Assembly (NCBI GenBank): GCA_019115665.1
Contig: DXDD01000064.1
Span: 1 to 60,457, forward strand
DNA from: Candidatus Eisenbergiella pullistercoris
GTDB lineage: Bacteria; Bacillota; Clostridia; Lachnospirales; Lachnospiraceae
DNA: 60,457 nt
Reading direction: 5' to 3'
The position numbers were made by a program, and so were the translations under genes. The notes under the pieces were generated by a model that was not told the origin of the DNA, searched no databases, and was given only the letters and a program-made list of their open reading frames with translations. Positions 2,511-46,574 of the stretch are shown piece by piece (within the stretch, counting starts at the first letter, position 1; each line of letters begins with the position of its first letter).

Positions 2511-2519
2511 GGGCGTCTG

Positions 2520-17224: not shown

Positions 17225-17263
17225 CCCCTACGAGCCGGGCAGCCGCAAGCCGGGCCCCGCGAC

Positions 17264-17330
17264 GGAAAACTGCCGCAGGCAGCTTTCCAGGCGCGGAGAT
17301 CCGGCCTGCGGCTATGCGGCGACAGCCGCA
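17264..17330 (+). other. Hairpin-rich intergenic leader of the repeat region
   Basis: Two hairpins lie just after the MBOAT stop: GGAAAACTGCC/GGCAGCTTTCC (17264-17274 with 17278-17288, one mismatch) and TGCGGCT/AGCCGCA (17307-17313 with 17324-17330). Neither is followed by a U-tract. They run directly into the 65-bp tandem repeats, so the whole intergenic stretch 17225-17660 appears highly structured. Confidence 0.5.
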
Positions 17331-17384
17331 AAGCGAGACGGAGCGAAGCGCAGTCGAGCGTGCCCGGCGGGTTCCCGAGAGGCC

Positions 17385-17645
17385 CCCCAATCCCCGCCTG
17401 CGGGCGCAGGCGAAGCCGACCGCCCGCCTCAACGAGTCAGAGAGAGGCCGCGCCACCCCCACCCGCGGGCGCAGGCGAAGCCGCTCGCCCGCCTCAACGA
17501 GTCAGAGAGAGGCCACGCAATCCCCGCCCGCGGGCGCAGGCGAAGCCGTCCGCCCGCCCCAACACAGCAGAGAGAGGCCACCCCCTCCCCGCCCTGGCGG
17601 ACAGGCGAAGCCGCATCCGCCCGCCCCGCTCCGTCATCAACCCGA
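17385..17645. repeat. 65-bp tandem repeat, about four copies
   Basis: Units beginning GCGGGCGCAGGCGAAGCCG start at 17400, 17465 and 17530, exactly 65 bp apart, and a fourth diverged copy aligns at 17595. A partial copy precedes the first. Copies 1 and 2 also share CCGCCTCAACGAGTCAGAGA. In each good copy GCGGGCG pairs with CGCCCGC 14 nt downstream, and the loop contains a smaller GGC-GAA-GCC stem. There are no unique spacers as in a CRISPR array. The frame through the repeats happens to stay open but would encode only Arg/Pro/Ala-rich sequence. Confidence 0.85.
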
Positions 17646-17673
17646 CCACCCCGCCCAACCAGGAGGCCCCAAC

Positions 17674-18735
17674 ATGAACCAACACCGAAAATGGCTGCTC
17701 CTTTTCCTGGCAGCCCTCACCGCAGCCCTCCTCGCGGTAACCGCCCTTGTCCTCATCGTAGACCCCTTTTTTCAATACCATGCCCCTCTTCCGGGCTACC
17801 CCTACAAGGTAGACAACCAGCTCTCCCAGAACCCGGGCATGGCAAGAAGGCTGGACTATGACAGCGTCCTGCTGGGTTCCTCCATGACGGCCAGCTTCGA
17901 CACCGACTGGTTTACACAGATCCTGGGCCTGAACACCGTAAAGCTCAGCTACAACGGAGCCCTCCCCAGGGATGAAGCCAACATCCTGGAAATCATCTTC
18001 GACGCGAAGCAGGATACGGTGAAAACCGTTTTCATGGCGCTGGACCAGAATACCCTCTCCGCGGATGTGGACGCTACCAAGTACCCCATCCCGGAATACC
18101 TGTACGACAAAAACCCCTTCAACAACATCCGCTACGTGCTCAACAAGGATGTGCTTCTCAATTACATTCTGAAGCCTCTTGCGGACCCCACGGAACGAAC
18201 CGACTGGAATCAGCTGTACAAGCCCTGGTGGACGGACCAGTATTATACCAAGGCCAATGTGCTGATGTATTACGAACCCGCTCCCGAGGCGCAGGAGCAG
18301 ATGCCGGAGGATCTCTTTCTTTCCGGCGCCGCGGCCAATCTGGATGTCAATATCTGCCCCTATATCGAGGCGCATCCGGAAACGGAATTCGTCTTTTTCT
18401 ATCCGCCCTACAGCATCCTTTACTGGAACGATGTCACCAGGCAGAAGCAGCTGGAGGCGGAGATCGCGGAGCTGGAATATGTGACCGGACGGCTCCTTTC
18501 CTATGAAAACGTGCGGATGTTCTGCTTCCAGAACCAGCGTGACATTGTCTGCGACCTGAACAACTATGCGGATTATACCCATTATCATGCGGACGTCTGC
18601 CGCTACATCGTGGAATGCTTTGCGGACGGCGCCTGCGAGCTGACGCAGGAAAACTACAGGGAGGTGTTCGCCGATCTGTCCGCTCTTGCGTCCGCCTATG
18701 ACTACGAAGCGATCTACGACAACTGGTATGAATGA
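17674..18735 (+). CDS. Membrane-anchored SGNH/DltD-like protein, second copy
   Basis: This 353-residue protein has an N-terminal signal-anchor (about residues 7-29) and an extracytoplasmic SGNH-like domain. LLGSSMT at residues 66-72 is the likely Ser block. DYTHYH near the C-terminus supplies Asp and His candidates. The start at 17674 is fixed by AGGAGG at 17661-17666 and by the anchor that follows; the open frame upstream runs through tandem repeats and is not credible as protein. With the MBOAT at 15722 it forms the second acyl-transfer pair of the window, inferred by analogy with DltB/DltD and AlgI/AlgJ. The acceptor glycan is unknown. Confidence 0.75.
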   Translation: MNQHRKWLLLFLAALTAALLAVTALVLIVDPFFQYHAPLPGYPYKVDNQLSQNPGMARRLDYDSVLLGSSMTASFDTDWFTQILGLNTVKLSYNGALPRDEANILEIIFDAKQDTVKTVFMALDQNTLSADVDATKYPIPEYLYDKNPFNNIRYVLNKDVLLNYILKPLADPTERTDWNQLYKPWWTDQYYTKANVLMYYEPAPEAQEQMPEDLFLSGAAANLDVNICPYIEAHPETEFVFFYPPYSILYWNDVTRQKQLEAEIAELEYVTGRLLSYENVRMFCFQNQRDIVCDLNNYADYTHYHADVCRYIVECFADGACELTQENYREVFADLSALASAYDYEAIYDNWYE

Positions 18736-27945: not shown

Positions 27946-29031
27946 ATGAGAACCTATCTGGTAACGGGCGGCGCCGGCTTCATCGGCTCCAATTATATTC
28001 ACTATATGTTTAAGAAATACGGGGACGAAATCCGCATCATCAACGTGGACGCCCTGACCTATGCGGGAAATCTGGAAAACCTGAAGGACGTGGAGGGAAG
28101 GGATAACTACACCTTCATCCGCGCCAACATCTGCGATAAGGAAGCGATTGAGAAGATCTTCGCGGAAAACGACATCGACCGGGTGGTGCATTTCGCGGCG
28201 GAGAGCCATGTGGACAGAAGCATTAAAAATCCCGAGATCTTCGTGCAGACCAACGTGCTTGGCACGGCGGTGATGCTCAACTGCGCGAAGGCGGCCTGGG
28301 AGAAGGAGGACGGAACCTTTCAGGAGGGAAAGAAATTCCTCCATGTCTCCACGGACGAGGTCTATGGTTCCCTGGAGAACGAGGGCGAGTATTTTTATGA
28401 GACCACGCCCTATGCGCCCCACAGCCCCTATTCCGCCAGCAAGGCGGGCTCGGACATGCTGGTAAAAGCCTATATGGACACCTATCATTTCCCGGCCAAC
28501 ATCACCAACTGCTCCAACAACTACGGCCCATATCAGTTCCCGGAGAAGCTGATCCCGTTAATCATCAACAACGCGCTTCACGGAAAGAAGCTTCCGGTCT
28601 ACGGAGACGGCAAAAACGTGCGCGACTGGCTGTATGTGGAGGACCACGCGAAGGCCATCGACATGGTGCAGGAGAAGGGGCGCCTGTTTGAGACCTATAA
28701 CGTGGGCGGACACAATGAGAAGCAGAATATTGAGATCATTCATATCATCCTTGACACCCTGCGGGAGATGCTTCCGGATTCCGATCCCAGGAAAGCGCAT
28801 ATCAACGAGGACCTGATTACCTACGTGGAGGACAGAAAAGGCCACGACCGCCGCTATGCCATCGCGCCGGACAAGATCCGTGCGGAGATCGGCTGGGAGC
28901 CGGAGACCATGTTCGCCGAAGGCATCAAAAAGACCATCGCCTGGTACTTCGAGCACGAGGACTGGATGAAAAACGTGACCAGCGGCGATTACCAGAAATA
29001 TTACGAGGAAATGTACCATACCGGGAAATAA
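27946..29031 (+). CDS. rfbB: dTDP-glucose 4,6-dehydratase
   Basis: RfbB converts dTDP-glucose into dTDP-4-keto-6-deoxyglucose, the second step of dTDP-L-rhamnose synthesis, in the cytoplasm. The 361-residue SDR protein has the NAD-binding GGAGFIGSNYIHYMF at the N-terminus, the HFAAESHVDRS segment, the STDEVYG segment carrying catalytic Asp-Glu, and YSASKAGSD containing the Tyr-x3-Lys pair. Length is normal. GGAGGAG lies just before the ATG. It heads a run of same-strand polysaccharide genes. Neighbouring rfbA and rfbC confirm the pathway; rfbD is not in the window. Confidence 0.97.
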   Translation: MRTYLVTGGAGFIGSNYIHYMFKKYGDEIRIINVDALTYAGNLENLKDVEGRDNYTFIRANICDKEAIEKIFAENDIDRVVHFAAESHVDRSIKNPEIFVQTNVLGTAVMLNCAKAAWEKEDGTFQEGKKFLHVSTDEVYGSLENEGEYFYETTPYAPHSPYSASKAGSDMLVKAYMDTYHFPANITNCSNNYGPYQFPEKLIPLIINNALHGKKLPVYGDGKNVRDWLYVEDHAKAIDMVQEKGRLFETYNVGGHNEKQNIEIIHIILDTLREMLPDSDPRKAHINEDLITYVEDRKGHDRRYAIAPDKIRAEIGWEPETMFAEGIKKTIAWYFEHEDWMKNVTSGDYQKYYEEMYHTGK

Positions 29032-29088
29032 ACGGACAGGCGCGTATAATCCCGCAGACGGCGGGCAGTAAAAGAAACGGAGGAAGCC

Positions 29089-29958
29089 ATGAAGGGTATC
29101 ATACTTGCAGGAGGGAGCGGAACCAGACTGTATCCGCTCACCAAGGCGATTTCCAAGCAGATCATGCCGGTCTATGACAAGCCGATGATCTACTATCCTC
29201 TTTCCACGCTGATGCTTGCGGATATCCGCGAGATTCTCATCATCTCCACGCCGCGGGATCTGCCCGTGTTCCGGGAGCTGTTCGGAACCGGGGAGCAGCT
29301 TGGACTTTCCCTTTCCTACGCGGTGCAGGAGGAACCGAGAGGACTTGCCGAAGCGTTTCTGATCGGAGAGGAGTTTATCGGAAAGGACCGCGTCGCCCTG
29401 GTGCTTGGGGACAATATTTTCTACGGCCAGAGCTTTTCCAAAGTGCTCCGTATGGTGGCGGCCAGGGAAAAGGGCGCCACGATCTTCGGCTATTATGTCC
29501 GCGACCCAAGAGAATACGGCGTGGTGGAGTTTGACGAAGACGGAAGGGCCCTTTCCATCGAGGAGAAGCCGGAGCATCCGAAGAGCAATTATGCGGTGCC
29601 GGGACTCTATTTTTACGACAATGATGTGGTTGAGATCGCGAAGAACGTGAAGCCTTCCGCGAGGGGAGAGCTGGAGATCACCGCAGTGAACAACGAATAC
29701 CTGCGCAGGGGAGACCTGCGGGTGGAGACGCTGGGCAGAGGCTTTGCCTGGCTGGATACGGGAAGCCACGATTCCCTGCTGGACGCCTCCGATTATGTGG
29801 CGGCGGTGCAGAAGCGGCAGGGCCTGTACGTTTCCTGCATCGAGGAGATCGCCTACCGCCGCGGCTTCATCAACAGGGAGCAGCTTCTGAAGCTGGCGGA
29901 GCCTCTGATGAAGACCAATTACGGAAAATATCTGGTGGAAGTTGCGAACGGGCTGTAA
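29089..29958 (+). CDS. rfbA: Glucose-1-phosphate thymidylyltransferase
   Basis: RfbA joins glucose 1-phosphate and dTTP to make dTDP-glucose, the first step of the rhamnose donor pathway. The 289-residue protein starts with the nucleotide-binding [17 protein letters not shown], followed by [13 protein letters not shown]. The LGDNIFYG segment holds the metal-binding Asp, and [10 protein letters not shown] and YFYDNDV are family typical. CGGAGGAAG precedes the ATG at 29089. It is 57 bp after rfbB in the same transcript. Allosteric control by dTDP-rhamnose is known for the family. Confidence 0.97.
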
Positions 29959-30037
29959 GACAGGCGGTCCGCGTTCGATGGGAACAGGGGGCGGGAACGC
30001 CTGCTTCCCGGGAAAATAAAGGAGAAAGTTTGTAAAA

Positions 30038-30610
30038 ATGGGAAAGATAACGGTAGAAACATGTGAAATCGAGGGCCTGAAGGTGATCACCCCCGCGGTT
30101 TTCGGGGATGAACGGGGCTATTTCATGGAAACCTATCATTATGAGGCATACAAGGAGGCCGGGATCGATCAGGTTTTCGTGCAGGACAATCAGTCCTCCT
30201 CCAGAAAGGGCGTGCTGAGAGGCCTGCATTTTCAGATCAATTTTCCCCAGGCGAAGCTGGTACGGGTCCTGAAGGGAGAGGTGTTCGATGTGGCTGTGGA
30301 TTTAAGAGAGGGCTCCCCTACCTTTGGAAAGTGGCATGGCGTGCTCCTTTCCGAGGAGAATAAAAAGCAGTTTTTCATCCCGGAGCATTTCGCCCACGGC
30401 TTTGTGGTGCTCTCCGACGAGGCGGAGTTCGCCTATAAATGTACGGATTTCTACCATCCGAACGATGAGGGCGGCCTGAAATGGGACGATCCGGAAATCG
30501 GCGTGAAGTGGCCGATCCCCGAGGGAATGGAACTGATTCTTTCCGAGAAGGATCAGAAATGGGGCGGACTGAAGGAGTACGCCGTGGACGGCGGCAGAAA
30601 GAAAGTTTGA
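30038..30610 (+). CDS. rfbC: dTDP-4-dehydrorhamnose 3,5-epimerase
   Basis: RfbC epimerises C3 and C5 of dTDP-4-keto-6-deoxyglucose to give dTDP-4-keto-L-rhamnose. The 190-residue cupin protein shows FGDERGYFMETYH, LRGLHFQ with the catalytic His, and FAHGFVVLSD; all are diagnostic. AAGGAGAAAG lies upstream of the ATG. The final reductase RfbD is absent between here and the exporter genes, so it must be encoded elsewhere if rhamnose is the end product. Confidence 0.96.
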   Translation: MGKITVETCEIEGLKVITPAVFGDERGYFMETYHYEAYKEAGIDQVFVQDNQSSSRKGVLRGLHFQINFPQAKLVRVLKGEVFDVAVDLREGSPTFGKWHGVLLSEENKKQFFIPEHFAHGFVVLSDEAEFAYKCTDFYHPNDEGGLKWDDPEIGVKWPIPEGMELILSEKDQKWGGLKEYAVDGGRKKV

Positions 30611-30620
30611 ACGGGAAAGA

Positions 30621-31640
30621 ATGAAGAAGGAAAAAAACAAAGCGGCGGCGGGAAAGCCGCTCAGTAAGAAGACAGGGATCACGATTTTCACCCTCATCAT
30701 GCTCATCATGGGGGTGATTATTGCGTGTTACCATAACCCGCTGGCGGACCCGGCGGACGAGCTTTTAAAGAAAATCATCGCCTGCGCGCTGATCGCGGCG
30801 GCCATCGTGGTATTCGCCCGGTTTTACGACAAGATCACCCAGCTTCCCCAGGAGCTGTATGCCAGCCGCCGCCTGATCTGGCGGCTGGCCAAAAACGATT
30901 TCAAACGGCGCTATGCCGGTTCCTACATGGGCGCCATCTGGGCCATGGTGCAGCCCGTGGTGACGGTCGCCATGTATTTCGTGGTGTTTCAGGTGATCAT
31001 GAAGCAGAAAATTGAGCTCGCGGGAAAAGGCGTGACGGTTCCCTATCTGGTGTTTCTGACCGCCGGACTGGTGCCCTGGTTCTATTTTTCCGAGGCGCTC
31101 ACCAGCGGCATGATGGCGCTTCTGGAGTATGAATATCTGGTGAAGAAGGTGGTTTTCAAGATCAGCATCCTTCCCATCATCAAGATCATCGCGGCCACGT
31201 TCATCCACCTCTTTTTTGTGATCGTGCTGCTCATCATTTCGGCCTGCTACGGCTTCTATCCCAGTCTGTATACGCTGCAGGTTTTCTATTACAGCTTCTG
31301 CACCTTTGCGCTGGTACTGGCGCTCAGCTATACCACCTGCTCCGTGGTGGTCTATTTCCGGGATCTGCAGCAGATCGTGGGTATCGGACTGCAGATCGGC
31401 ATGTGGGCCACGCCGGTACTGTGGAATATCGGGCAGATGAACGAGAACGTCCAGATGGTTCTGAAGATCAATCCGCTGGTGTACATCGTGGAGGGCTACC
31501 GCAGCGCGATTTACGGAGAACAGTGGTTCTGGGAGGATTTCTACTCCACCATGTACTTCTGGATCATTACGGTGGTGCTGTTCGTCATCGGCACGCTGGT
31601 CTATAAGCGCCTGAAGGTACATTTCGCGGATATCATGTAG
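30621..31640 (+). CDS. wzm: ABC-2 type polysaccharide exporter permease (Wzm/TagG-like)
   Basis: This 339-residue integral membrane protein is the permease of an ABC exporter for undecaprenyl-linked polysaccharide. The ABC-2 membrane domain spans about residues 85-335, with LIWRLAKNDFKRRYAGSYMGAIWAMVQP at its start as in Wzm and TagG; the following helices include VYIVEGYRSAIYG near the end. The N-terminus is extended by about 80 residues with two further helices, which is longer than typical Wzm. It begins 10 bp after rfbC. The ATPase partner follows, but a 194-bp palindromic element separates them. Confidence 0.92.
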   Translation: MKKEKNKAAAGKPLSKKTGITIFTLIMLIMGVIIACYHNPLADPADELLKKIIACALIAAAIVVFARFYDKITQLPQELYASRRLIWRLAKNDFKRRYAGSYMGAIWAMVQPVVTVAMYFVVFQVIMKQKIELAGKGVTVPYLVFLTAGLVPWFYFSEALTSGMMALLEYEYLVKKVVFKISILPIIKIIAATFIHLFFVIVLLIISACYGFYPSLYTLQVFYYSFCTFALVLALSYTTCSVVVYFRDLQQIVGIGLQIGMWATPVLWNIGQMNENVQMVLKINPLVYIVEGYRSAIYGEQWFWEDFYSTMYFWIITVVLFVIGTLVYKRLKVHFADIM

Positions 31641-31645
31641 GGAGA

Positions 31646-31839
31646 GTTACTATTCACAGCCCCTCCACCCGCATGCGCAAAACCAGCCAGCTTCGCTGTC
31701 TGCCGCTGCTGACGCAGCTTCCCGTTTTGCTTATTTGGGTGGAGTGACTGATTCCAGTCTGCCGGATCAACGCTTTGCTCTGCTTACATGCGAGCATGAC
31801 GCAGAGCAATCTTTGAACCGGCAGGCTGTGAATAGTAAC
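31646..31839. repeat. 194-bp MITE-like palindromic element folding into three arms
   Basis: GTTACTATTCACAGCC (31646-31661) is repeated as a perfect inverted copy GGCTGTGAATAGTAAC (31824-31839). Inside are two further hairpins. One uses CTCCACCC/GGGTGGAG (31663-31670, 31737-31744) plus GCAAAAC/GTTTTGC (31677-31683, 31724-31730). The other uses TGCCGGATCAA/TTGAACCGGCA (31760-31770, 31813-31823, one mismatch) plus TTGCTCTGC/GCAGAGCAA (31775-31783, 31801-31809) capped by CATGC-GA-GCATG. It encodes no protein. It starts 6 bp after the wzm stop and ends just before the RBS of wzt. A clear target-site duplication is not visible. Confidence 0.85.
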
Positions 31840-31852
31840 AGGAAGGAACAAC

Positions 31853-33268
31853 ATGGATACAAAACAGCTTGCCATCCACGTGGAGGGACTGAATAAGGTA
31901 TACCGTCTGTATGATCACAACAGGGACCGGCTCATCGATTCGCTGGGCCTTGCCAGAAAAAAACGCTACCGGGAGCATTTTGCCCTGAACAATGTGGATC
32001 TGGACGTATATCAGGGCGAATGCGTGGGCATCATCGGAACCAACGGCTCCGGAAAGTCCACCATTCTGAAAATCATTACCGGGGTGCTCAACCCCACATC
32101 CGGCACCGTGCAGGTGAACGGGCGAATCTCCGCCCTGCTGGAGCTGGGCGCGGGCTTTAATTATGAATACAACGGCATCGAAAACGTTTATCTCAACGGC
32201 ACCATGATCGGCTTTTCGGAGAAGGAGATCGACGAGAAGCTGCAGGATATCCTGGATTTCGCGGATATCGGAGATTATGTCTATCAGCCGGTGAAAACCT
32301 ATTCCAGCGGTATGTTCGTGCGGCTGGCCTTTGCGGTGGCCATTAACATCGATCCGGAAATCCTGATCGTGGACGAGGCGCTTTCCGTGGGAGACGTGTT
32401 TTTCCAGGCCAAGTGCTATCATAAGTTTGAGGAATTCAAAAAGCAGGGAAAGACCATCCTCTTCGTGAGCCATGATCTGAGCGCGATCAGCAAATACTGT
32501 GACCGGGCGGTGCTGTTAAATCAGGGCGTGAAGCTGGGAGAGGGAAGCCCCCGCGACATGATCGACATTTACAAGCAGGTGCTGGTGGGCCAGTATGAGC
32601 TTCCCAGCGGAGATAAAAAGGCGAATCTGGCGGCGGATGAGGATATCCGGAAATTGGCCGCCAAGAAGGCTGACGGCGGCGCGTCCCGGACATCGTCTCC
32701 GGCTGGGGAGACCGCGCAGGAGCAGACGGCTCAGACCGGACAGGCGGAAGAGGAAAACGCTGGACAGCCCGCGGCGGAAGGAGAGGGCCGTCCGGTTCCG
32801 GGCCTCAACATCCAGGCGCTCGAATACGGCACCAAAGAGGCCGAGATCGTGGAATACTATATGACGGACGGGGCGGGACTTCGCACCTCGGCCATTCTGA
32901 AGGGAGAGTCCTTTACCCTTCATATGAAGGTGAAGATTCATAAGGACATTGCGGCTCCCATTTTTGCCCTTTCCATCAAGAACATTAAGGGCGTGGAAAT
33001 CACGGGAACCAACACCATGGTGGAGCGAAGCTTTCTGGAAAGCGTGAAGGCCGGAGAGGTCCTCGCCATCACCTTCACCCAGAAGGTGCGCCTCCAGGGC
33101 GGCGAATACCTGCTTTCCCTGGGCGTGACAGGCTATGAGAAGGACGCTTTTACGGTATACCACAGGCTGTACGACATCCTGAACCTGACCGTGATTTCAG
33201 ACCATGATACGGTGGGCTACTTCGATATGGAATCGGATGTGAAAGTGGAGTACGAGAAGAAGTTCTAA
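31853..33268 (+). CDS. wzt: ABC exporter ATPase with C-terminal glycan-binding domain (Wzt-like)
   Basis: This 471-residue protein is the ATPase of the exporter. Walker A is GTNGSGKST at 62-70, the signature is YSSGMFVRLAFA, and Walker B is ILIVDEAL. After a low-complexity linker of about 60 residues, residues about 320-471 form a Wzt_C-type beta-sandwich. In E. coli O8/O9a this domain reads the capped non-reducing end of the finished polymer before export. AGGAAGGA lies before the ATG at 31853. Its presence here, followed directly by a methyltransferase-kinase gene, implies chain-end recognition in a Gram-positive envelope. That inference rests on domain order and neighbours. Confidence 0.93.
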   Translation: MDTKQLAIHVEGLNKVYRLYDHNRDRLIDSLGLARKKRYREHFALNNVDLDVYQGECVGIIGTNGSGKSTILKIITGVLNPTSGTVQVNGRISALLELGAGFNYEYNGIENVYLNGTMIGFSEKEIDEKLQDILDFADIGDYVYQPVKTYSSGMFVRLAFAVAINIDPEILIVDEALSVGDVFFQAKCYHKFEEFKKQGKTILFVSHDLSAISKYCDRAVLLNQGVKLGEGSPRDMIDIYKQVLVGQYELPSGDKKANLAADEDIRKLAAKKADGGASRTSSPAGETAQEQTAQTGQAEEENAGQPAAEGEGRPVPGLNIQALEYGTKEAEIVEYYMTDGAGLRTSAILKGESFTLHMKVKIHKDIAAPIFALSIKNIKGVEITGTNTMVERSFLESVKAGEVLAITFTQKVRLQGGEYLLSLGVTGYEKDAFTVYHRLYDILNLTVISDHDTVGYFDMESDVKVEYEKKF

Positions 33269-33291
33269 ACCGGCAGAAAACAGGAGGTAAT

Positions 33292-35361
33292 ATGACGGAG
33301 CAGATCGGAAAAGTGACGCTGGACCTTTCCCATTATCCGGGCGAGGATTATTACTGCGACGGGACGGTGGAGGATGAGATCCTGGAGATCGTAAAAAACG
33401 AGCCGTCGGGAAATTATCAGAAGCAGATCGAGGAAAAGAAAAGCTGGCCGGTGTTCTATCATCTGTCGCCGCAGCGGGAAAACATCGTCTCCTGGCTTCC
33501 CATGGATAAGAGCACGAAGGTGCTGGAGGTGGGAAGCGGCATGGGGGCGGTGACGGGCGTGCTCGCTGAGAAGGCGGGAAGCGTCACCTGTGTGGATCTG
33601 TCGAAGAAGCGCAGCACCATCAACGCCATCCGGAACCGGGAGCGGGACAACGTGACGATTCATGTGGGGAATTTCACGGATATCGAGCCGGACCTGCCCT
33701 GCGATTACGATTATGTGCTCTTAATCGGAGTGTTTGAGTATGGGCAGAGCTATATCCCCACAAAAACCCCCTTTGAGGATTTCCTGAAAATCAATCTGAA
33801 GCATGTGAAGCCGGGCGGAAATCTGGTCATCGCCATTGAAAACAAGATGGGGATGAAATACTGGGCGGGCTGTCAGGAGGATCATCTTGCAAAGTTTTTC
33901 GTAAGTGTAGAGGACTATCCGGAGGGCGGAGGCGTGCGCACCTTCACGAGGAAGGGACTGGAACGGCTGCTAAAGACCTGCGGAGTGTCGGATTATCATT
34001 TTTATTATCCCTATCCGGACTACAAATTCGCGGATGTGATCTACTCGGACAAAAGGCTTCCGAGACTGGGAGAGCTTTCCCGCAATCTTCGGAATTTCGA
34101 CGGGGACAGGCTGCTTTTATTTGATGAAAAGAACGCCTTCGACATGGTGATCCGGGAAGGGATCTTCCCCATGTACAGCAATTCCTATCTGCTCATGACC
34201 GGGCCCGCGCCGGAAACCGTTTACTCCAAGTTTTCCAACGACCGGGCGGACATCTATGCCATCCGGACGGACATCACACAGGACGAAGCGGGAATGAAGC
34301 GGGTCCTGAAGTATCCGGACAGTCCGGCGGCGGCGGAGCATGTGGAAAATATCGCGCGCTTCGGAAGGCTGCTTCAGGAGCGGTATGAGGAGGGCGGCCT
34401 GTATGTGAACCGCTGCGAGATCGCAAGGCAGCCGGACGGCCTGCCCTGCGCCTGTCTTGAATATCTGGAAGGGATCACGCTGGAGGAGCTTCTGGATAAC
34501 TGTCTGGAGGAGGGCGATCAGGCGGGTTTTGACGCCCTGTTTGAAGAGTATCTGCAGAAAATCCGGGTCCATCAGGAAATGCCGGTTTCCGATTATGATC
34601 TGGTGTTCGGAAATATTCTGATCGACGAAGAAGGCCGCTGGAATCTGATCGATTATGAATGGACGTTTGAGGAGCGGGTGGATATGGAGGCTCTGGCCTA
34701 CCGTTCCCTGTACTGCTATCAGCTGGGCGACGGAAGGCGGAAGAACCTTGCCGTGGAGCCTTTTCTGAAGCGGCTTGGCATCAGCGAGGAAAAGGCGGAG
34801 GAGTATCGGGCGAGGGAGAGACGGTTTCAGAAGGCGGTGACGGGAAACCGGGTTTCCATTTCCGACATGCGCGTGCTTTTGGGCCGCAGGGCCGTGCCCT
34901 GGCAGTCCTTTTTCGCTCAGGTGGAGCGCAGCATCGTAGAGATTTTTGAGGATTTCGGACAGGGCTACAGCCCGAAGCATTCCTATCGGATGTACCCGAG
35001 CTATGTGGTGGCCGATGTGATGCGGCTTACCATTCCCATAAAGGAGGGCGTGCGCGGCGTGCGCGTGGATCCTGCGGAGTGCTCCTGCATCATCCGGATG
35101 AAGTCGGCAAAGCTTTCCGGAAAGGAGCTGGATCTTGCGGACAAGGCGGTGCTTGCCATGAACGGCTGGGAACTGACCGGAAAAGGGGAAAAGCTGCCGG
35201 TCTTTTTCTTCCATACGGACGACCCCAATATCAATATCCGGCTGGAAAAAGAGGACAGTGAGGCGGGAGATATGCTGGAGCTGGAATTTGAGATCAACAG
35301 GCTGCCGGAGGAAACCGCTTCGGCCCTGGACGCGAATCTGAAAAGGAGACACTGGTTTTGA
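33292..35361 (+). CDS. Methyltransferase-kinase fusion, WbdD-like chain terminator candidate
   Basis: This 689-residue protein has three regions. Residues about 50-230 are a class I SAM methyltransferase, with motif I VLEVGSGMG at 77-85 and the Asp-containing VTCVDLS strand. Residues about 270-510 look like a eukaryotic-type or aminoglycoside-type kinase: RVLKYP supplies the N-lobe Lys, D436 to N441 (DLVFGN) the catalytic loop and D454 (DYEW) the metal Asp. The rest is a beta-rich domain. E. coli WbdD has the same methyltransferase-kinase order and caps O-antigen chains so that Wzt can recognise them. The gene follows wzt after 23 bp with AGGAGGTAAT, and its stop overlaps the next start. Confidence 0.78.
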   Translation: MTEQIGKVTLDLSHYPGEDYYCDGTVEDEILEIVKNEPSGNYQKQIEEKKSWPVFYHLSPQRENIVSWLPMDKSTKVLEVGSGMGAVTGVLAEKAGSVTCVDLSKKRSTINAIRNRERDNVTIHVGNFTDIEPDLPCDYDYVLLIGVFEYGQSYIPTKTPFEDFLKINLKHVKPGGNLVIAIENKMGMKYWAGCQEDHLAKFFVSVEDYPEGGGVRTFTRKGLERLLKTCGVSDYHFYYPYPDYKFADVIYSDKRLPRLGELSRNLRNFDGDRLLLFDEKNAFDMVIREGIFPMYSNSYLLMTGPAPETVYSKFSNDRADIYAIRTDITQDEAGMKRVLKYPDSPAAAEHVENIARFGRLLQERYEEGGLYVNRCEIARQPDGLPCACLEYLEGITLEELLDNCLEEGDQAGFDALFEEYLQKIRVHQEMPVSDYDLVFGNILIDEEGRWNLIDYEWTFEERVDMEALAYRSLYCYQLGDGRRKNLAVEPFLKRLGISEEKAEEYRARERRFQKAVTGNRVSISDMRVLLGRRAVPWQSFFAQVERSIVEIFEDFGQGYSPKHSYRMYPSYVVADVMRLTIPIKEGVRGVRVDPAECSCIIRMKSAKLSGKELDLADKAVLAMNGWELTGKGEKLPVFFFHTDDPNINIRLEKEDSEAGDMLELEFEINRLPEETASALDANLKRRHWF

Positions 35362-37349
35362 ATATCAAGAAAATGCTGCAGGCTCCCATGCGCAGCAGAC
35401 AGAAGTACAAATATGAGGCGAGAATCAAAGAACAGACCGTGCGTTATCACGACTGGATCCTCAGAAAGGAGGAGAAGGAGCGGGAAGGACGTACTCTGGA
35501 AGGGGAGTCCCTTGTGGTAAAGTGCGTTCCCTTCGCTTCCTGCCGGGCGGGCTTTTCCGTCAGAAACGCGGGAGAGGGAGCGGATATTCTGGTCTTTCAC
35601 GCGGACTGCGGAAAACCGGAGGAGGAAGCGCTCCGGCTGTTCGCGGACTTTTTTGCCAAAAATCCGGAAGCGGTTCTGGCCTATGGAGATGAGGACGAGG
35701 TTCTGCCGGAAAACGGCGGACGCCGCACCAATCCATGGCTGAAGCCGGACTGGTCGCCGGATACGCTGATTTCCTGTTTTTACTTCGGTAATATTTTTGC
35801 CGTAAGAACCTCTGCGGCCTGCGGCGTTCCCTGGCTGGGGAATGCGGACTGGAAACGGAATCTGTATGATTTCTGCCTGAAGCTTTCCGAAAAGGCGGGA
35901 GCCGGACATGTGGACAGCGTGCTTTTTCATGGAAAAGAGCCCATCCGGCCCTTCGGCATGGAAGAGGAATACGCGGATCTGAAAAAGGAAGCCTACATAA
36001 GGCGGAACTGGCCGCTTGAACCGGAGGGAATGGTTTCCATCGTGATCCCCTCCAAGGACAATCCGGGCGTGCTTTCCACCTGTATTCATTCCGCCATGGA
36101 GGCCAGCAGCTACCGGAATTTTGAGATCATCGTGATCGATAACGGAAGCGGCGAAAAGAACCGCGCCCGCATCGAGCGGATGCTTTCCCAGATGACGCCG
36201 GAATGCCGGTTCCAGTATGTGTATGAGCCCATGGAGTTCAATTTTTCCCATATGTGCAATCTGGGGGCGGCACGGGCGAAGGGAGATTATATCCTGTTTC
36301 TGAACGACGACATTGAGATCATTCAGGAGGACTGGCTGGAAAAAATGGTGGAAAAGGCGCAGCTTCCCCATGTGGGAGCGGTGGGCGTGAAGCTTCTCTA
36401 TCCGTCGAGCCGCGCCATTCAGCACGCGGGCATCACCAACATCCGGCTGGGCCCGGCCCATAAGCTGCAGTATCGGGACGATAGGACGGACTATTATTTT
36501 CTCCGAAACCGTCTGGCCTTCGACGTGCTGGGCGTGACGGGCGCCTGCCTGATGGTGAAAAGAAGCCTCTTTGAGGAGAGCGGCGGCTGGAATGAGGACC
36601 TGCGGGTAGCCTTCAACGACGTGGATTTCTGCTACCGTCTGCATGATATGGGCTATGTGAACGTGGTGAGAAACGATGTCGCCCTTTACCATCATGAGTC
36701 GTTAAGCCGCGGGCTGGACGACAGCGTGGAGAAGCTCAAGCGCCTGCACGGAGAGCTGGACCTTTTGTATGAGCTGCATCCTTCCATTTACGGCAGGGAT
36801 CCCTACTATCACCGCTATCTGGTGAAGGATGTGCTGGATCAGGAGTTTTACGCGGGAAACCGTTATGAATATGAGGACAGAATGGATCGGGTGGCCCCGG
36901 AGATCATGAAGGAGGGGCTGCGGCCGGAGTGGAGCAACGAGGTGCTGCGCATGGGCATCGAGTTCGCCGGAGACATGGACAAGTGGGAGACCGGAAAGGC
37001 CGGCGGCGGAGATTATTTCATCCAGGGCTGGTGCTATGCGCTTCAGGTGGATAACAGCCAGTACCGCTTCAACCTGCTCTTAAAGCCCGCAGGACGGGGA
37101 GACGGCCCTGCCGGAGAAGAGGCGGGCGCGGTGTGGAAGCTGTCCGTGAACCGCCAGTACCGCCCGGACATCCAGGAAAATCTGGGACATCTGGAAAAGA
37201 ATCAGGTGGCGCTCACCGGCGTCTGCGTGAGCTTCCCCAGAAAAGCCCTGCCGGAGGGCGAGTATCAGATCGGCTTTCTCTGGGAGGACTGCTGCTCCAG
37301 ACAGAAGCTTTACCAGTGGACGGCGGAGACGATGAGGATCACGTATTGA
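35358..37349 (+). CDS. Two-domain GT2 glycosyltransferase
   Basis: This 663-residue protein carries a complete GT-A family 2 domain at about residues 225-460: VSIVIPSKDNPGVLSTCI at its start, FLNDDIEII as the DxD-like metal site, and GVTGACLMVKRSLFEESGG plus FNDVDFCYRL as the acceptor region. The first 210 residues look like a degenerate GT2 domain (DEDEVLP and NPWLKPDWSPDTL). The C-terminal 120 residues are a separate small domain. It probably adds rhamnose or another sugar during assembly of the exported glycan. Initiation is at TTG 35358, overlapping the previous stop, with AAAGGAG upstream; an ATG at 35373 is an alternative. Confidence 0.85.
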   Translation: MNIKKMLQAPMRSRQKYKYEARIKEQTVRYHDWILRKEEKEREGRTLEGESLVVKCVPFASCRAGFSVRNAGEGADILVFHADCGKPEEEALRLFADFFAKNPEAVLAYGDEDEVLPENGGRRTNPWLKPDWSPDTLISCFYFGNIFAVRTSAACGVPWLGNADWKRNLYDFCLKLSEKAGAGHVDSVLFHGKEPIRPFGMEEEYADLKKEAYIRRNWPLEPEGMVSIVIPSKDNPGVLSTCIHSAMEASSYRNFEIIVIDNGSGEKNRARIERMLSQMTPECRFQYVYEPMEFNFSHMCNLGAARAKGDYILFLNDDIEIIQEDWLEKMVEKAQLPHVGAVGVKLLYPSSRAIQHAGITNIRLGPAHKLQYRDDRTDYYFLRNRLAFDVLGVTGACLMVKRSLFEESGGWNEDLRVAFNDVDFCYRLHDMGYVNVVRNDVALYHHESLSRGLDDSVEKLKRLHGELDLLYELHPSIYGRDPYYHRYLVKDVLDQEFYAGNRYEYEDRMDRVAPEIMKEGLRPEWSNEVLRMGIEFAGDMDKWETGKAGGGDYFIQGWCYALQVDNSQYRFNLLLKPAGRGDGPAGEEAGAVWKLSVNRQYRPDIQENLGHLEKNQVALTGVCVSFPRKALPEGEYQIGFLWEDCCSRQKLYQWTAETMRITY

Positions 37350-37480
37350 GCCGCGGCGGCGCAGAGCGAACGGGATAAACCGAACCGCGGCTTCGCGGAC
37401 GGCGCGGACTGCGGAAAAACTGCGGCGGCGCAGAGCGGACTGTGAAAAAGAAGCAGCGGACAAAAAGGAAAGGCAGACAG

Positions 37481-38908
37481 ATGGAAAAGGATTACAAAGA
37501 GGCATACGAACAGGAGAAATACAAAAGCACCTATCTGGCGGGCCGGGTGGCCGAGCTGGAGGATCAGGTGGACGACCTCCAGTTTAAGCTGGACCGGATC
37601 AAGAACAATCCGGTCTGGAAGGCCAGCGCGCCGTTTCGCAGGTGCATGCATTTCTGCATCCGTCAGGCGGACCGGGTGAAAAACTGCGGCAGCCTTTCCG
37701 GCGTGATCGCCAAGATGAAGTATAAGGCCAACGAGCGAAAGGCCATGTGCTATTACGGCACGGAAAGCTTCCCGGACGATGCGGAGCGGGAACGCCAGAA
37801 GAATACGGTGTTTGACCGTATGGTGAAGGTCAGCGTGCTGACGCCCCTGTGGAACACGCCGGAGAATTTTCTGCGGGAGATGATCGAATCCGTGCAGGCG
37901 CAGACCTATCAGAACTGGGAGCTGTGCCTGGCGGACGGCTCGGACGACGCCCACGCCTACGTGGGAGAGATCTGCCGGGAATACGCGGCGAAGGACAGCC
38001 GGGTCGTATACCGGAAGCTGGAAAAAAACGGCGGCATCGCGGAAAATACCAACCGGTGCCTGGAGATGGCGACGGGTGAGTTTGTCGCGCCCTTCGACCA
38101 TGACGACCTGCTGCACCCCAGCGTGCTGTACGAATATGTGAAGGTCATCAATGAAAAGAACGCGGATTATATTTACTGCGACGAGGCCACCTTTAAAAAC
38201 GGCGACGTGAACCAGATGATCACCATGCACTTCAAGCCGGACTACGCCATCGACAACCTGCGGGCCAACAACTATATCTGTCATTTCAGCATGTTTGACA
38301 GAAGGCTTCTGGAGGGGACGGAGCTGTACCGGACCAAATTCGACGGAAGCCAGGACCACGACATGATCCTGCGCCTGACGGATAAGGCGAAAAATGTGGT
38401 CCATGTGCCAAAGCTTCTGTATTACTGGAGGCAGCACGCGGGAAGCGTCTCCTCCGGCGTTCAGGCCAAGCCCTACGTGGTGGAATCCGCAAGGGGCGCG
38501 GTGGCGGATCACCTGAGACGGCACGGCTTTTCCAATTTCAAGATCACCAGCACCAGGGCCTTTGAGACCATTTTCAAGATCACCTATGAGATCATCGGGG
38601 AGCCTAAGATTTCCATCATCATCCCCAATAAGGACCATGTGGAGGACCTGCGGCGCTGCATCAGTTCCATCATGGAAAAGTCCACCTATGACAATTATGA
38701 GATCATTGTGGTGGAAAACAACAGCGAAACCAGAGAAATTTTCGCCTATTATGAGGAACTCGCAAACAATCCGGCGGTGAAAATCATCCCTTATAAAGGG
38801 GACTTCAATTATTCCGCCATCAACAACCTGGGCGTCTCCTACGCCTCCGGCGACTATGTGCTGCTTCTGAACAACGACATTCAGATCATCACGGTGAACT
38901 GGATGTAG
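37481..38908 (+). CDS. Tandem GT2 glycosyltransferase, N-terminal part (amber-interrupted)
   Basis: This 475-residue product has a coiled-coil N-terminus (about 5-45), one complete GT2 domain (about 110-330; VSVLTPLWNTPENFL, FDHDDLLHP, DEATF, QDHDMILR) and the first half of a second GT2 domain (SIIIPNKDHVEDLRR, LLLNNDIQII). A TAG at 38906-38908 stops it right after the second domain's DxD-like site. The reading frame continues without shift for 171 codons more, so this is one ancestral gene of about 650 codons broken by one nonsense change. AAGGAAAGG lies before the ATG at 37481. The first domain should still be active. The gap 37350-37480 holds only two copies of a GCGGCGGCGCAGAGCG repeat. 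Confidence 0.82.
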   Translation: MEKDYKEAYEQEKYKSTYLAGRVAELEDQVDDLQFKLDRIKNNPVWKASAPFRRCMHFCIRQADRVKNCGSLSGVIAKMKYKANERKAMCYYGTESFPDDAERERQKNTVFDRMVKVSVLTPLWNTPENFLREMIESVQAQTYQNWELCLADGSDDAHAYVGEICREYAAKDSRVVYRKLEKNGGIAENTNRCLEMATGEFVAPFDHDDLLHPSVLYEYVKVINEKNADYIYCDEATFKNGDVNQMITMHFKPDYAIDNLRANNYICHFSMFDRRLLEGTELYRTKFDGSQDHDMILRLTDKAKNVVHVPKLLYYWRQHAGSVSSGVQAKPYVVESARGAVADHLRRHGFSNFKITSTRAFETIFKITYEIIGEPKISIIIPNKDHVEDLRRCISSIMEKSTYDNYEIIVVENNSETREIFAYYEELANNPAVKIIPYKGDFNYSAINNLGVSYASGDYVLLLNNDIQIITVNWM

Positions 38909-38917
38909 GAGCTTCTC

Positions 38918-39433
38918 ATGTACGCCCAGCGCCCGGACGTGGGAGCCGTGGGAGCCAAGCTGTACTATCCGGACAAGACCATCCAGCACGCCGGCGTGGT
39001 CATCGGTCTCGGCGCGCACCGCACCGCGGGCCATGTGCACTACCGCCAGAAGCGGGAGAATCTGGGCTACATGGGCAGGCTCTGCTACGCTCAGAACATG
39101 TCCGCCGTGACCGGCGCCTGCCTGCTGGTGAAAAAGGCGCTCTACGAAGAGGCGGGCGGCCTGGATGAAAGCTTCGCCGTTTCCTTAAACGACGTGGACT
39201 TCTGCCTGAAGCTGAGAAAGCTGGGATATCTGAACGTGTTCACCCCCTTTGCGGAGGCCTATCATTACGAGTCCGCCTCCCGCGGCTCCGACATGACAGG
39301 AGAGGCCGCCGCGCGCTACAACGACGAATCCGCCCGCTTCCGGGAGAAGTGGAAGGAACAGCTGGAAGCCGGGGATCCCTACTTTAATCCCAATTTCAGC
39401 CTGGATAAGAGCGACTTTTCTTTACGCGTCTGA
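38918..39433 (+). CDS. Tandem GT2 glycosyltransferase, C-terminal part (after amber codon)
   Basis: These 171 residues are the second half of the second GT2 domain: VGAVGAKLYYPDKTIQHAG, TGACLLVKKALYEEAGG and LNDVDFCLKLRKLGY. They correspond to residues following the NDDIEII site in the paralogue at 35358. The frame is the same as the upstream part. AGGAG at 38907-38911, which includes the last base of the stop region, lies 6 nt before the ATG at 38918, so the fragment could be made by re-initiation. Whether it complements the upstream part or is dead is unknown. Confidence 0.75.
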   Translation: MYAQRPDVGAVGAKLYYPDKTIQHAGVVIGLGAHRTAGHVHYRQKRENLGYMGRLCYAQNMSAVTGACLLVKKALYEEAGGLDESFAVSLNDVDFCLKLRKLGYLNVFTPFAEAYHYESASRGSDMTGEAAARYNDESARFREKWKEQLEAGDPYFNPNFSLDKSDFSLRV

Positions 39434-43771: not shown

Positions 43772-43800
43772 TTGTGCTTTTTTGTCGGATATTGTACAAT
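43772..43800 (+). promoter_or_regulatory. Promoter of the WbaP-like/LCP genes
   Basis: TTGTGC (43772-43777), a 17-bp spacer and TACAAT (43795-43800). The start of transcription would lie about 25 nt before the ATG at 43831. It suggests the initiating transferase and LCP ligase can be expressed separately from the upstream assembly genes. Confidence 0.6.
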
Positions 43801-43830
43801 ACAGGTTGTACATGGGAAACGGGTGAAGCC

Positions 43831-45258
43831 ATGATAAAGGATAACCAGCAGTATTTTAACCGACTGCATGTTATAGTGGACGCGCTGGTGATCGCAGGCT
43901 CCTATATACTTGCATGGTATCTCTGGATAGGAAGGAACAGAACAGGTACGGGCGCCGCGGTAGGCGTGCTGGATATGGGGATCTATTTCAGCGCGCTGTA
44001 TTTTGTTGTGCCCGGATATCTGATCCTCTACTACTGGTTCCGGCTGTATTCCCCGAAGCGGGTCCAGAGAAGCGAGACGGAGATCCTGAACGTGTTCAAG
44101 GCAAACATCGTGGGGATGACCGTTTTTCTGGCGATCCTGTTCATGGCGAACGACTGGCGGCAGCTGCAGCTGCAGCATTTCTCGCGTGGCATGGTGGCTC
44201 TGTTTACCGGCATCAATACGGTGAGCACGCTGCTGATGCGGGCTTTCATCCGTTACTGCCTGCATTTTATGCGCAAAAAGGGCTACAACCGCAAATATAT
44301 TCTTCTGGTGGGATATTCCCGCGCGGCGGAGGAATATATCAACCGGATCAACAGCAACCCGCACTGGGGATATGTGGTAAGAGGGATTCTGGATGATAAG
44401 GTTCCCAGGGGCGCAACCTATAAGGGAGTGAAGGTGCTCGGATCCATCAATAATCTTCTGTACATCCTGCCGGAAAACAAGCTGGACGAGATCGCGATCA
44501 CCCTGTCGCTGGAGGATTACGACCGTCTGGAGGCGCTGGTGGACCTGTGTGAAAAATCCGGCGTGCATACCAAGTTCATACCGGACTACAACAGCCTGAT
44601 CCCGGGACATCCTTATATGGAGGATCTGATGGGGCTTCCCGTGATCAACATCCGTTATGTGCCCCTGACCAATACCATGAGCGCCTTTGCCAAGCGGTGC
44701 GTGGATCTGGCCGGCTCCTTTTTCGGGCTGATCCTGATCTCGCCCCTGCTCCTTACGGTGGCGTTCCTGGTGAAATTCACCAGCCCCGGCCCCGTCATTT
44801 TCAAGCAGGAGCGGGTGGGGCTGCACAACAAGCCCTTTATGATGTACAAGTTCCGCACCATGTACCAGCAGCAGCCCGGAGAGGAAAAGAAGGGCTGGAC
44901 GGTAAAGGGGGATCCGCGGGTGACAAAGGTCGGCGGATTTCTGCGCAGAACCAGCATCGACGAGCTTCCTCAGCTGTTCAACGTGCTGAAGGGAGATATG
45001 AGCCTGGTGGGGCCGCGCCCGGAACGGCCTCAGTTTGTGGAAAAATTCAAAGAAGAGATCCCGCGCTATATGATCAAGCATCAGGTGCGGCCGGGGATGA
45101 CCGGATGGGCGCAGATCAACGGCTACCGGGGAGACACCTCCATCCGCAAGCGGATCGAATACGACATCTATTACATCGAAAACTGGAGCATGGCATTTGA
45201 TATCAAAATCCTTTTCCTGACCTTCTTTAAAGGATTTATCAATGAGAATGCCTATTAG
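43831..45258 (+). CDS. Undecaprenyl-phosphate glucose/galactose phosphotransferase (WbaP-like)
   Basis: This 475-residue polyprenyl glycosylphosphotransferase starts glycan synthesis by moving a sugar 1-phosphate onto undecaprenyl phosphate. It has about four N-terminal helices, a Rossmann-type CoA_binding_3 region (about 140-260), a fifth helix at about 290, and the catalytic bacterial sugar transferase domain: FKQERVGLHNKPFMMYKFRTM, TSIDELPQLFNVLKGDMSLVGPRPE and RPGMTGWAQINGYRG. The Asp-Glu of SIDELPQ is the catalytic pair. The ATG at 43831 has GGGTGA upstream; earlier codons fall in the promoter. Its sugar is probably glucose or galactose, judged from the family. Confidence 0.93.
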   Translation: MIKDNQQYFNRLHVIVDALVIAGSYILAWYLWIGRNRTGTGAAVGVLDMGIYFSALYFVVPGYLILYYWFRLYSPKRVQRSETEILNVFKANIVGMTVFLAILFMANDWRQLQLQHFSRGMVALFTGINTVSTLLMRAFIRYCLHFMRKKGYNRKYILLVGYSRAAEEYINRINSNPHWGYVVRGILDDKVPRGATYKGVKVLGSINNLLYILPENKLDEIAITLSLEDYDRLEALVDLCEKSGVHTKFIPDYNSLIPGHPYMEDLMGLPVINIRYVPLTNTMSAFAKRCVDLAGSFFGLILISPLLLTVAFLVKFTSPGPVIFKQERVGLHNKPFMMYKFRTMYQQQPGEEKKGWTVKGDPRVTKVGGFLRRTSIDELPQLFNVLKGDMSLVGPRPERPQFVEKFKEEIPRYMIKHQVRPGMTGWAQINGYRGDTSIRKRIEYDIYYIENWSMAFDIKILFLTFFKGFINENAY

Positions 45259-45296: not shown

Positions 45297-46574
45297 ATGG
45301 CATCATCAACAAGAAACGAGGGAACCCGCAGAACGAGCACAGGACGCTCCTCAGGCGGGAGCCGGCGGACTTCCGGCGGAGAGCGGCGTTCCTCCCGCAG
45401 AGATTACGACGCCTACGACGAGGAGAGAAGCTATTCCTCATCGGGCCGCAGGAGCTCTTCCTCCTCCCGCAGAACTTCCGGAGACGGCAGACGCACATCC
45501 TCCGGCGGCCGGAGAAGCCAGTCCCGTAAGAAGAAAACGAATCCGACGAAGCGCGTCATCCTGTTCAGCGTGGAGATCCTCGCCCTGGTGGTGCTTGCTC
45601 TTGTACTCTGGGCGGTGGGAAAGCAGGACGCGGTCCAGCACATCACCATCAATGAAAGCCAGATCGTGGAAAACATGAACGAGGGCGTGGAGCAGAACGA
45701 GGTCATGCAGGGCTACCGGAACATCGCCCTGTTCGGACTGGACGCCAGAGACGACGATCTGAAGAAGGGAAACCGCTCCGACACCATCATGATCGCCTCC
45801 ATCAATCAGGATACCGACGAGGTGAAGCTGGTCAGCGTCTACCGCGACACCTATCTGAACCTGAGCAACGATTCCTACAACAAATGCAACGCGGCCTACG
45901 CGGCCGGAGGTCCGGAGCAGGCCATCCTCATGCTGAACATGAATCTGGACATGAACATCACGGAGTACATCAGCATCAACTTCAACGGTCTGATCGAGCT
46001 GGTGGATTCGCTGGGCGGCGTGCAGATCAACGTGGAGGAAGCGGAGATCGAGCATCTGAACGACTATCAGAAGAGCATGTTCAGCACGGAAAGCAGGGTG
46101 GTGCTCTCCGAAGACTATACGCCCGTAACGAAGTCCGGGCTTCAGACGCTGAACGGCATGCAGGCCACCGCCTACTGCCGGATCCGCGCCACTGCGGGAG
46201 ATGACTTCCGCCGTGCGGAAAGACAGCGTACCGTGCTGCTGGCCTGTCTGGAGAAAGCCAAGAGCGCTTCCTTCTCCCAGCTGGAGTCCGCGCTGAACAG
46301 CGTGCTTCCGCATGTGGCGACCAATCTGGATACGGCGGAGATCCTGAGCGTGCTGCAGGAGGTCGGAAACTATACCGTTACAGGAACGGACGGATTCCCG
46401 TTTGAAGATACCCGTACCACGGGAACGCTGGGAAGCAAGGGAAGCTGCGTCATTCCTGTCGATCTGGAAGCGAACGTGGTCGCGCTTCATAATTTCCTTT
46501 TTGAGGAGGAGTACACTCCCTCCGAACAGGTGAAGTCCTACAGCGCGAAGATTTCCAGCGATACCGGATATTAA
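45297..46574 (+). CDS. LytR-CpsA-Psr (LCP) family wall-polymer ligase
   Basis: This 425-residue protein has a Ser/Arg-rich cytoplasmic tail (1-80), one membrane helix (about 85-105) and an extracellular LCP domain (about 140-330). LCP enzymes move lipid-linked polymers onto peptidoglycan. Conserved residues are in LFGLDARDDDLKKGNRSDTIMIASI, VSVYRDTYL and YCRIRATAGDDFRRAERQR, the Arg/Asp set that binds the pyrophosphate. GGAGAG lies before the ATG at 45297, 38 bp after the WbaP-like gene. It probably attaches the rhamnose-type glycan of this locus, so the polymer is inferred to be wall-linked. A terminator follows. Confidence 0.93.
   Translation: MASSTRNEGTRRTSTGRSSGGSRRTSGGERRSSRRDYDAYDEERSYSSSGRRSSSSSRRTSGDGRRTSSGGRRSQSRKKKTNPTKRVILFSVEILALVVLALVLWAVGKQDAVQHITINESQIVENMNEGVEQNEVMQGYRNIALFGLDARDDDLKKGNRSDTIMIASINQDTDEVKLVSVYRDTYLNLSNDSYNKCNAAYAAGGPEQAILMLNMNLDMNITEYISINFNGLIELVDSLGGVQINVEEAEIEHLNDYQKSMFSTESRVVLSEDYTPVTKSGLQTLNGMQATAYCRIRATAGDDFRRAERQRTVLLACLEKAKSASFSQLESALNSVLPHVATNLDTAEILSVLQEVGNYTVTGTDGFPFEDTRTTGTLGSKGSCVIPVDLEANVVALHNFLFEEEYTPSEQVKSYSAKISSDTGY

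Follow-up and report, generated by a model that had tools for sequence, protein, structure and literature searches.

A putative Klebsiella O7 ORF6-type glycan chain terminator beside a Wzt_C-bearing exporter in a Lachnospiraceae locus

Introduction

Does a Gram-positive bacterium finish its surface glycans with a cap that the glycan exporter reads? The question is raised by a locus on contig DXDD01000064.1 of Candidatus Eisenbergiella pullistercoris (Clostridia; Lachnospiraceae), of which we analyzed a stretch of 60,457 nucleotides, here called the window. In this locus the exporter genes wzm and wzt are followed by a gene that fuses an S-adenosylmethionine (SAM) methyltransferase to a kinase-like domain; we refer to it as the terminator gene, after its predicted role. 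The cap-and-export logic is established for Gram-negative O antigens. A first-pass annotation of the window had read the protein as WbdD-like and had proposed the same capping and length control for a wall glycan ligated by a LytR-CpsA-Psr (LCP) protein. We report that the protein is probably a chain terminator of the kind of Klebsiella O7 ORF6, which would phosphorylate the end sugar and then methylate this phosphate, with the Wzt_C domain of the exporter ATPase reading the cap for export.

Capping in Gram-positive bacteria is not new as an idea, because two such chain ends have been published. The S-layer rhamnan of Geobacillus is capped with 2-O-methyl-rhamnose, and its export by Wzm-Wzt is predicted (PMC2943079); the S-layer glycan of Clostridioides difficile Ox247 ends in a rhamnose with a cyclic phosphate, for which its authors speculated about an O9a-like termination (PMC6254364). 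Methyltransferase and kinase, as whole words, are both absent from the main text of the latter paper. For the view that chain termination is a widespread strategy, PMC11231755 cites a 2019 census of such systems. Our literature search found no paper on a methyltransferase-kinase of this kind in Lachnospiraceae; the 2019 census could hold it. That census reportedly covers Gram-positive bacteria too. A search for a link to Lachnospiraceae or to glucorhamnan returned nothing useful.

Results

The exporter genes and the terminator gene lie in the same direction, with 23 bp between wzt and the terminator gene, and comprise the following features.

30621..31640, + strand: wzm, ABC-2 type permease of the glycan exporter (Pfam ABC2_membrane, E 3e-16)
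31853..33268, + strand: wzt, ATPase of 471 amino acids (aa) with a C-terminal Wzt_C domain (Pfam ABC_tran and Wzt_C)
33292..35361, + strand: terminator gene, 689 aa, ATG at 33292 and stop at 35361 (Pfam, AlphaFold, Foldseek, and hhalign to a Pseudomonas asturiensis protein)
34189..34926, + strand: predicted kinase domain of the terminator (aa 300-545 as modelled)
34927..35304, + strand: C-terminal all-beta domain of the terminator (secondary structure of the model and co-linear alignment), with a putative function only

The coordinates of wzt and of the gene after it, and the spacing between them, were exactly those of the first-pass annotation. Its assignment of a Wzt_C-type domain to the ATPase was borne out as well (aa 323-459, Pfam E 2.7e-40), and the window Wzt is 37% identical to the Wzt of the O9 locus of Escherichia coli HS over 460 columns, tail included. 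In the terminator, the SAM methyltransferase spans aa ~10-300 (Pfam Methyltransf_12 at aa 78-178, E 6.1e-8), the modelled kinase ~305-535 and the beta domain 549-670. The motif VLEVGSGMG at aa 77-85 and the residues D436, N441 and D454 stood where they had been placed. Among 70 aligned relatives, L78, E79, G81, G83 and G85 never change and V77 hardly does; V80 and S82 are variable, and at least 90% have C at position 84. In the kinase region K340, D436, N441, D454, E456 and W457 are invariant in all 70. The beta domain, which the first-pass annotation did not mention, occupies the position of the immunoglobulin (Ig)-like putative carbohydrate-binding module of Klebsiella O7 ORF6.

Pfam assigned no kinase family to the window terminator, nor to its kinase stretch alone at E values up to 1, and the kinase stretches of 35 relatives gave only weak matches, to Pkinase in three and to APH in one. 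AlphaFold modelled the whole terminator with a predicted local distance difference test (pLDDT) score of 90.0 from a 70-sequence alignment, and residues 300-545 alone with 90.6 from 35 sequences. When the latter model was searched with Foldseek, the best 50 of ~2000 matches were kinases only, led by human PRPK with template modeling (TM) scores of 0.55 and 0.58; WbdD and AmiN were not among these 50. Sequence profiles pointed the same way: one search matched JAK tyrosine kinases (E 2.8e-5 for the best kinase row, among the best 60 of 232 matches) and another GCN2 (7.6e-4, among the best 60 of 72), WbdD being absent from these best 60 in either case. A phmmer search of PDB sequences at E values up to 10 returned 31 matches, mostly methyltransferases, among them neither a kinase nor any entry named WbdD. 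The kinase-like middle region of the first-pass annotation is thus predicted to adopt a kinase fold, and this model is well supported.

We then compared the terminator with WbdD, using the 708-aa protein of the E. coli HS O9 locus, which carries the residues R36, D82, H132, H133, R203, Y230, D351, W355, N356 and D369 named in PMC3482155. A family profile aligned with WbdD by hhalign over 84 columns around the SAM site (probability 37.6%). The kinase profile aligned over 18 columns only (1.4%), which is no detectable kinase homology. The phosphate-site pair H132/H133 of WbdD falls opposite E149/Y150 of the terminator, and R203 lies outside the aligned part. A BLAST match of 56 residues (E 1.7) paired D351, N356 and D369 of WbdD with D436, N441 and D454, so the two kinases have the spacing of this loop in common. 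WbdD also resembles the window protein in joining a methyltransferase to a kinase, in adjoining wzt and in the order wzm-wzt-terminator-polymerase; unlike it, WbdD has a coiled coil and the H132/H133 pair, neither of which was seen in the window terminator. At the level of sequence, then, the terminator is not a recognizable WbdD homologue, and the label "WbdD-like", taken as kinship, finds no support.

A closer relative appears to be the N-terminal terminator part of ORF6 of Klebsiella pneumoniae O7. ORF6 joins a methyltransferase to an unrecognized kinase that resembles AmiN most, and also has an Ig-like domain, a coiled-coil region and two glycosyltransferase family 2 (GT2) modules; in vitro, the terminal rhamnose is phosphorylated at position 3 and partly methylated, and the D441A variant is kinase dead (PMC11231755). 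Its SAM-binding residues are Y28, Y66, G91, G93, E112 and Y158, and orthologues are described from alphaproteobacteria, gammaproteobacteria and cyanobacteria and, in the discussion, from Methanoculleus (PMC11231755). All six residues, at the same numbers, are present in a 1457-aa plasmid protein of P. asturiensis. In the window terminator their equivalents are Y21, Y56, G81, G83, D102 and Y150, all invariant in 70/70 relatives except position 102, which is D in 45 and E in 25. A profile of 18 sequences (A1) aligned by hhalign with the P. asturiensis protein over 626 columns (E 1e-47), through methyltransferase, kinase and beta domain, and the kinase profile alone over 190 columns (probability 93.4%). 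The window and P. asturiensis kinases have the motif D-x4-N-x12-D-x-E-W in common, and D436 aligns with D443 of P. asturiensis, which would make it the equivalent of Klebsiella D441. The terminator is therefore best placed, through its homology to the P. asturiensis protein, with the Klebsiella O7 ORF6 type. The two share the order of methyltransferase, a kinase unlike that of WbdD, and beta or Ig-like domain, as well as SAM-site residues, a rhamnose-containing chain (putative for the window locus) and Wzm-Wzt-type export; they differ in that the window protein has no coiled coil that we could see and no fused GT2 modules, and belongs to a Gram-positive host with an LCP gene in the locus.

Three of 72,556 records in a plasmid collection matched. 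The order wzm-wzt-terminator is kept on the Citrobacter and Pseudomonas plasmids, and both of their Wzt proteins carry Wzt_C. The Citrobacter terminator aligns with the window family over 474 columns (E 7.5e-44), in a locus with the order rmlBACD-wzm-wzt-terminator-glycosyltransferases. It lies on the Citrobacter braakii plasmid NZ_CP136728.1 (L112), which is typed as conjugative and thus carries a rhamnose-type Wzm-Wzt glycan locus with a terminator.

The first-pass annotation had called for a genome survey of co-occurrence with Wzt_C-bearing exporters, and we made one in 150 Lachnospiraceae genomes. The terminator profile matched 89 of them at an E value of 1e-3 or better, and 94 had Wzt_C (92 above its cut-off). 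Adjacency was counted in the 78 genomes with a best E value of 1.2e-6 or better, one place each, leaving out the 11 of 89 whose best E value exceeded 1e-5. Wzt_C lay less than 900 bp upstream of the terminator in 65 of the 78, at some other place on that contig, no more than 5 kb away, in 9 and on another contig in 3; one genome had none. Counted from the other side, which adds four second places to the one-per-genome set, 73 of the 76 Wzt_C domains scoring at least 134 bits lay within 6 kb of a terminator gene, 66 of them directly upstream (<1 kb), against 1/37 and 0/37, respectively, of those with lower scores; the 134-bit split was set with the score gap (134.3 to 121.0) already in view, and kinship among the genomes means that the counts are not independent trials. 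The terminator thus couples tightly to one Wzt_C subclass.

A pattern scan of named genomes gave the same picture. It yielded at least 592 stretches with at least 532 relatives, and in 76 of the best 80, which we examined, a Wzt_C-bearing wzt stood just upstream (within 300 bp in 75; gap of -29 to 597 bp, median 18). The remaining four comprised two with one gene in between, one at a contig end and one running through ambiguous bases. An apparent fusion of wzt and terminator in one open reading frame (ORF) in L075 was discarded, the stretch being full of ambiguous bases.

According to PMC11231755, the termination strategy has a characteristic marker, namely that the terminator contains an extended coiled coil. 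We scored heptads with a crude home-made heuristic, by which 0/79 relatives reached 1.5; WbdD scored 1.66 (shuffle maximum 1.60) and the Citrobacter protein 1.51, and the P. asturiensis protein, at 1.38, fell below its own shuffle maximum. The tail behind the beta domain measures 6 to 64 aa (median 12; 70 sequences). Because the coiled-coil ruler of the prototypes was not seen in the terminator, the length control that the first-pass annotation had carried over from WbdD/Wzt is doubtful. Coiled coils do occur nearby: the second glycosyltransferase of the window has such a stretch at its start (aa 28-55), and within the first 200 aa of a following large gene the score reaches at least 1.5 in 45/76 loci. 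In the Lachnospiraceae relative L027 (622 aa, outside the 79), a likely coiled coil (1.47) replaces the beta domain.

The same parts recur in other arrangements. All of 20 regions picked for looking different (L143-L162) combined methyltransferase and kinase with a wzt that bears Wzt_C. The two enzymes were encoded by separate genes in 16 of them, the kinase gene having GT2 modules in 6 of these, and were fused in the other four within ORFs of 1238 to 1890 aa that also hold GT2 modules. These different gene splits and fusions, which resemble O-antigen variation, argue that the parts work together.

The terminator is common in Lachnospiraceae and rare around it. In the host class, the whole profile had a best match below 1e-20 in 17 genomes, namely 9/10 Lachnospiraceae and 8/281 others; at any level the search matched 210/291 genomes, mostly with generic methyltransferase matches. 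The kinase profile matched 9/299 genomes of the host phylum at 1e-3, 4 of them Lachnospiraceae. A 51% identical terminator also stands beside wzt on a contig labelled Candidatus Gastranaerophilales (L038), possibly through a binning error.

The neighbouring genes are listed here.

27946..30610, + strand: rmlB-, rmlA- and rmlC-type genes for dTDP-rhamnose precursors (named by reading ORFs)
35358..37349, + strand: GT2 glycosyltransferase, candidate part of the polymerase (Pfam Glycos_transf_2, E 1.4e-21)
37442..39433, + strand: second downstream GT2 gene, in two ORFs (37442-38908 and 38918-39433) parted by an in-frame TAG, with a coiled-coil-like stretch
43774..45258, + strand: WcaJ-type undecaprenyl-phosphate sugar phosphotransferase, candidate initiator (TIGR03023, 506 bits; cut-off 410.75)
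45297..46574, + strand: LCP protein, candidate ligase to the wall (PF03816, E 8.8e-35)

In a profile search of the genome, rmlD was found above its cut-off on another contig. The TAG at 38906-38908 may be natural or an assembly error; the interrupted gene had gone unmentioned in the first-pass annotation. In 67/80 relatives, a GT2-like gene longer than 600 aa begins over 1.5 kb past the terminator. The initiating transferase and LCP genes adjoin each other downstream of the terminator, in its direction. The genome has four LCP matches in all, and one Wzy_C protein, which is encoded away from the locus.

Between wzm and wzt lies an element of 194 bp (31646-31839) with perfect 16-bp terminal inverted repeats (GTTACTATTCACAGCC) and strong folding as single-stranded DNA (z -10.3). 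It has no Rfam match and no second full copy in the genome, where its first 14 bases occur once more (contig C123), and it is missing between wzm and wzt of relative L031, whose terminator is 90% identical. It resembles a small mobile or structured element. Upstream of the locus, ORF reading suggested that an MBOAT-like membrane acyltransferase is twice paired with a secreted SGNH-like protein, at 1407-4028 and at 15722-18735.

Discussion

We propose the following sequence of events. At the inner face of the membrane, the kinase domain of the terminator would phosphorylate an undecaprenol-linked glycan on the sugar at its non-reducing end, which is probably rhamnose, and the methyltransferase domain would next methylate that end phosphate, whereupon chain growth would stop. 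The Wzt_C domain of the neighbouring ATPase would then bind the capped end, Wzm-Wzt would export the chain, and in a later step an LCP protein would attach it to the wall. The end sugar, the chemistry of the cap, its recognition by Wzt_C, termination and wall attachment by LCP are what we infer from the domains, the conserved residues and the gene neighbourhood. The first-pass annotation thus had the logic right: a methyltransferase-kinase does stand beside a Wzt whose tail is of the glycan-binding kind, the genes follow an order resembling that of the E. coli O9 locus, and the same Clostridia locus includes an LCP gene. It named the wrong nearest relative, and its length control and wall ligation are hypothetical.

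Several observations weigh against a terminator of the ORF6 kind. The coiled coil that serves the prototypes as a ruler is not seen in the window protein, whose longest modelled helix has 21 residues. The link to ORF6 runs through the P. asturiensis protein and published residue numbers, and the presumed catalytic aspartate is residue 443 there, not 441. The hidden Markov models (HMMs) built from Lachnospiraceae catch part of the Pseudomonas kinase but miss the beta domain there, and in Citrobacter they miss both domains. Conservation of the third kinase residue is incomplete, since the Citrobacter kinase has FEREW where others have IDxEW. The fusion itself is not needed, because methyltransferase and kinase are separate in most of the picked regions.

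The enzyme might instead decorate repeats along the chain with methyl and phosphate side groups, Wzt_C reading the backbone or the decorations. The protein alone does not reveal its site of action, the coiled-coil ruler that keeps known terminators at the chain end was not seen, and the beta domain could bind internal repeats; we nevertheless consider chain decoration improbable, in view of the homology to an enzyme type shown to act on terminal rhamnose and of the tight pairing with one Wzt_C subclass, which fits a signal read at export. Still less probable, in our judgment, is that the methyltransferase alone matters and makes an O-methyl sugar cap as in Geobacillus WsaE or E. coli O8, the kinase being noncatalytic or structural. 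Such caps have been described together with Wzm-Wzt genes in a Gram-positive bacterium (PMC2943079), and the window kinase domain matches no Pfam family, but K340, D436, N441 and D454 do not vary among the relatives, the D-N-D spacing is that of D351, N356 and D369 in WbdD, and a separate kinase-domain gene follows the methyltransferase gene in 16/20 picked regions. WsaE with Wzm-Wzt of Geobacillus stearothermophilus resembles the window system in its Gram-positive host and predicted ABC export and, if our reading is right, in its rhamnan and the methyl cap at the chain end; it differs in that the methyltransferase is fused to two glycosyltransferases, the cap is an O-methyl group, the target is an S-layer protein, and no kinase features in its description, as far as the source at hand goes (PMC2943079).

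A further alternative concerns only the last step and is compatible with an ORF6-type terminator: the capped chain may become linked to a surface protein, in the manner of S-layer glycosylation, or form an exopolysaccharide, rather than reach the wall by way of LCP. Both published Gram-positive capped glycans sit on S-layer proteins (PMC2943079, PMC6254364). The C. difficile Ox247 locus is like that of the window in belonging to Clostridia and in ABC export, and putatively also in its rhamnose-rich chain and the phosphate on the non-reducing end; it is unlike it in the 2,3-cyclic phosphate and the S-layer target (PMC6254364). With four LCP matches in the genome, the LCP protein of the locus need not be specific, and a Wzy_C protein is encoded elsewhere. 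Given that the LCP and initiating transferase genes are neighbours downstream of the terminator and in the same direction, we regard such a destination as rather unlikely, though by some way not negligible.

Taking the ORF6-type terminator further, we tentatively raise a broader possibility, which we would not yet favour: a ruler-less system throughout the Lachnospiraceae, in which methyltransferase, kinase and beta (putatively glycan-binding) domain are shuffled in one or more genes behind a matched Wzt_C subclass, the beta domain, coiled-coil glycosyltransferases or Wzt_C itself determines chain length, and LCP puts a methyl-phosphate-capped rhamnan on the wall. The likely coiled coil of L027 counts against a ruler-less design across the whole family. 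If the capping proposal is true, the cap and the coiled-coil ruler, which are tied to each other in the Gram-negative prototypes, would come apart, and there would be natural variants that combine the two enzymes in a single gene, split them over two, or join them to the polymerase. Gut commensals of a large family would then finish their surface glycans with a defined, charged end that decides on export and perhaps on length, and host, phages and glycan-degrading neighbours would all meet this chain end as the outermost feature.

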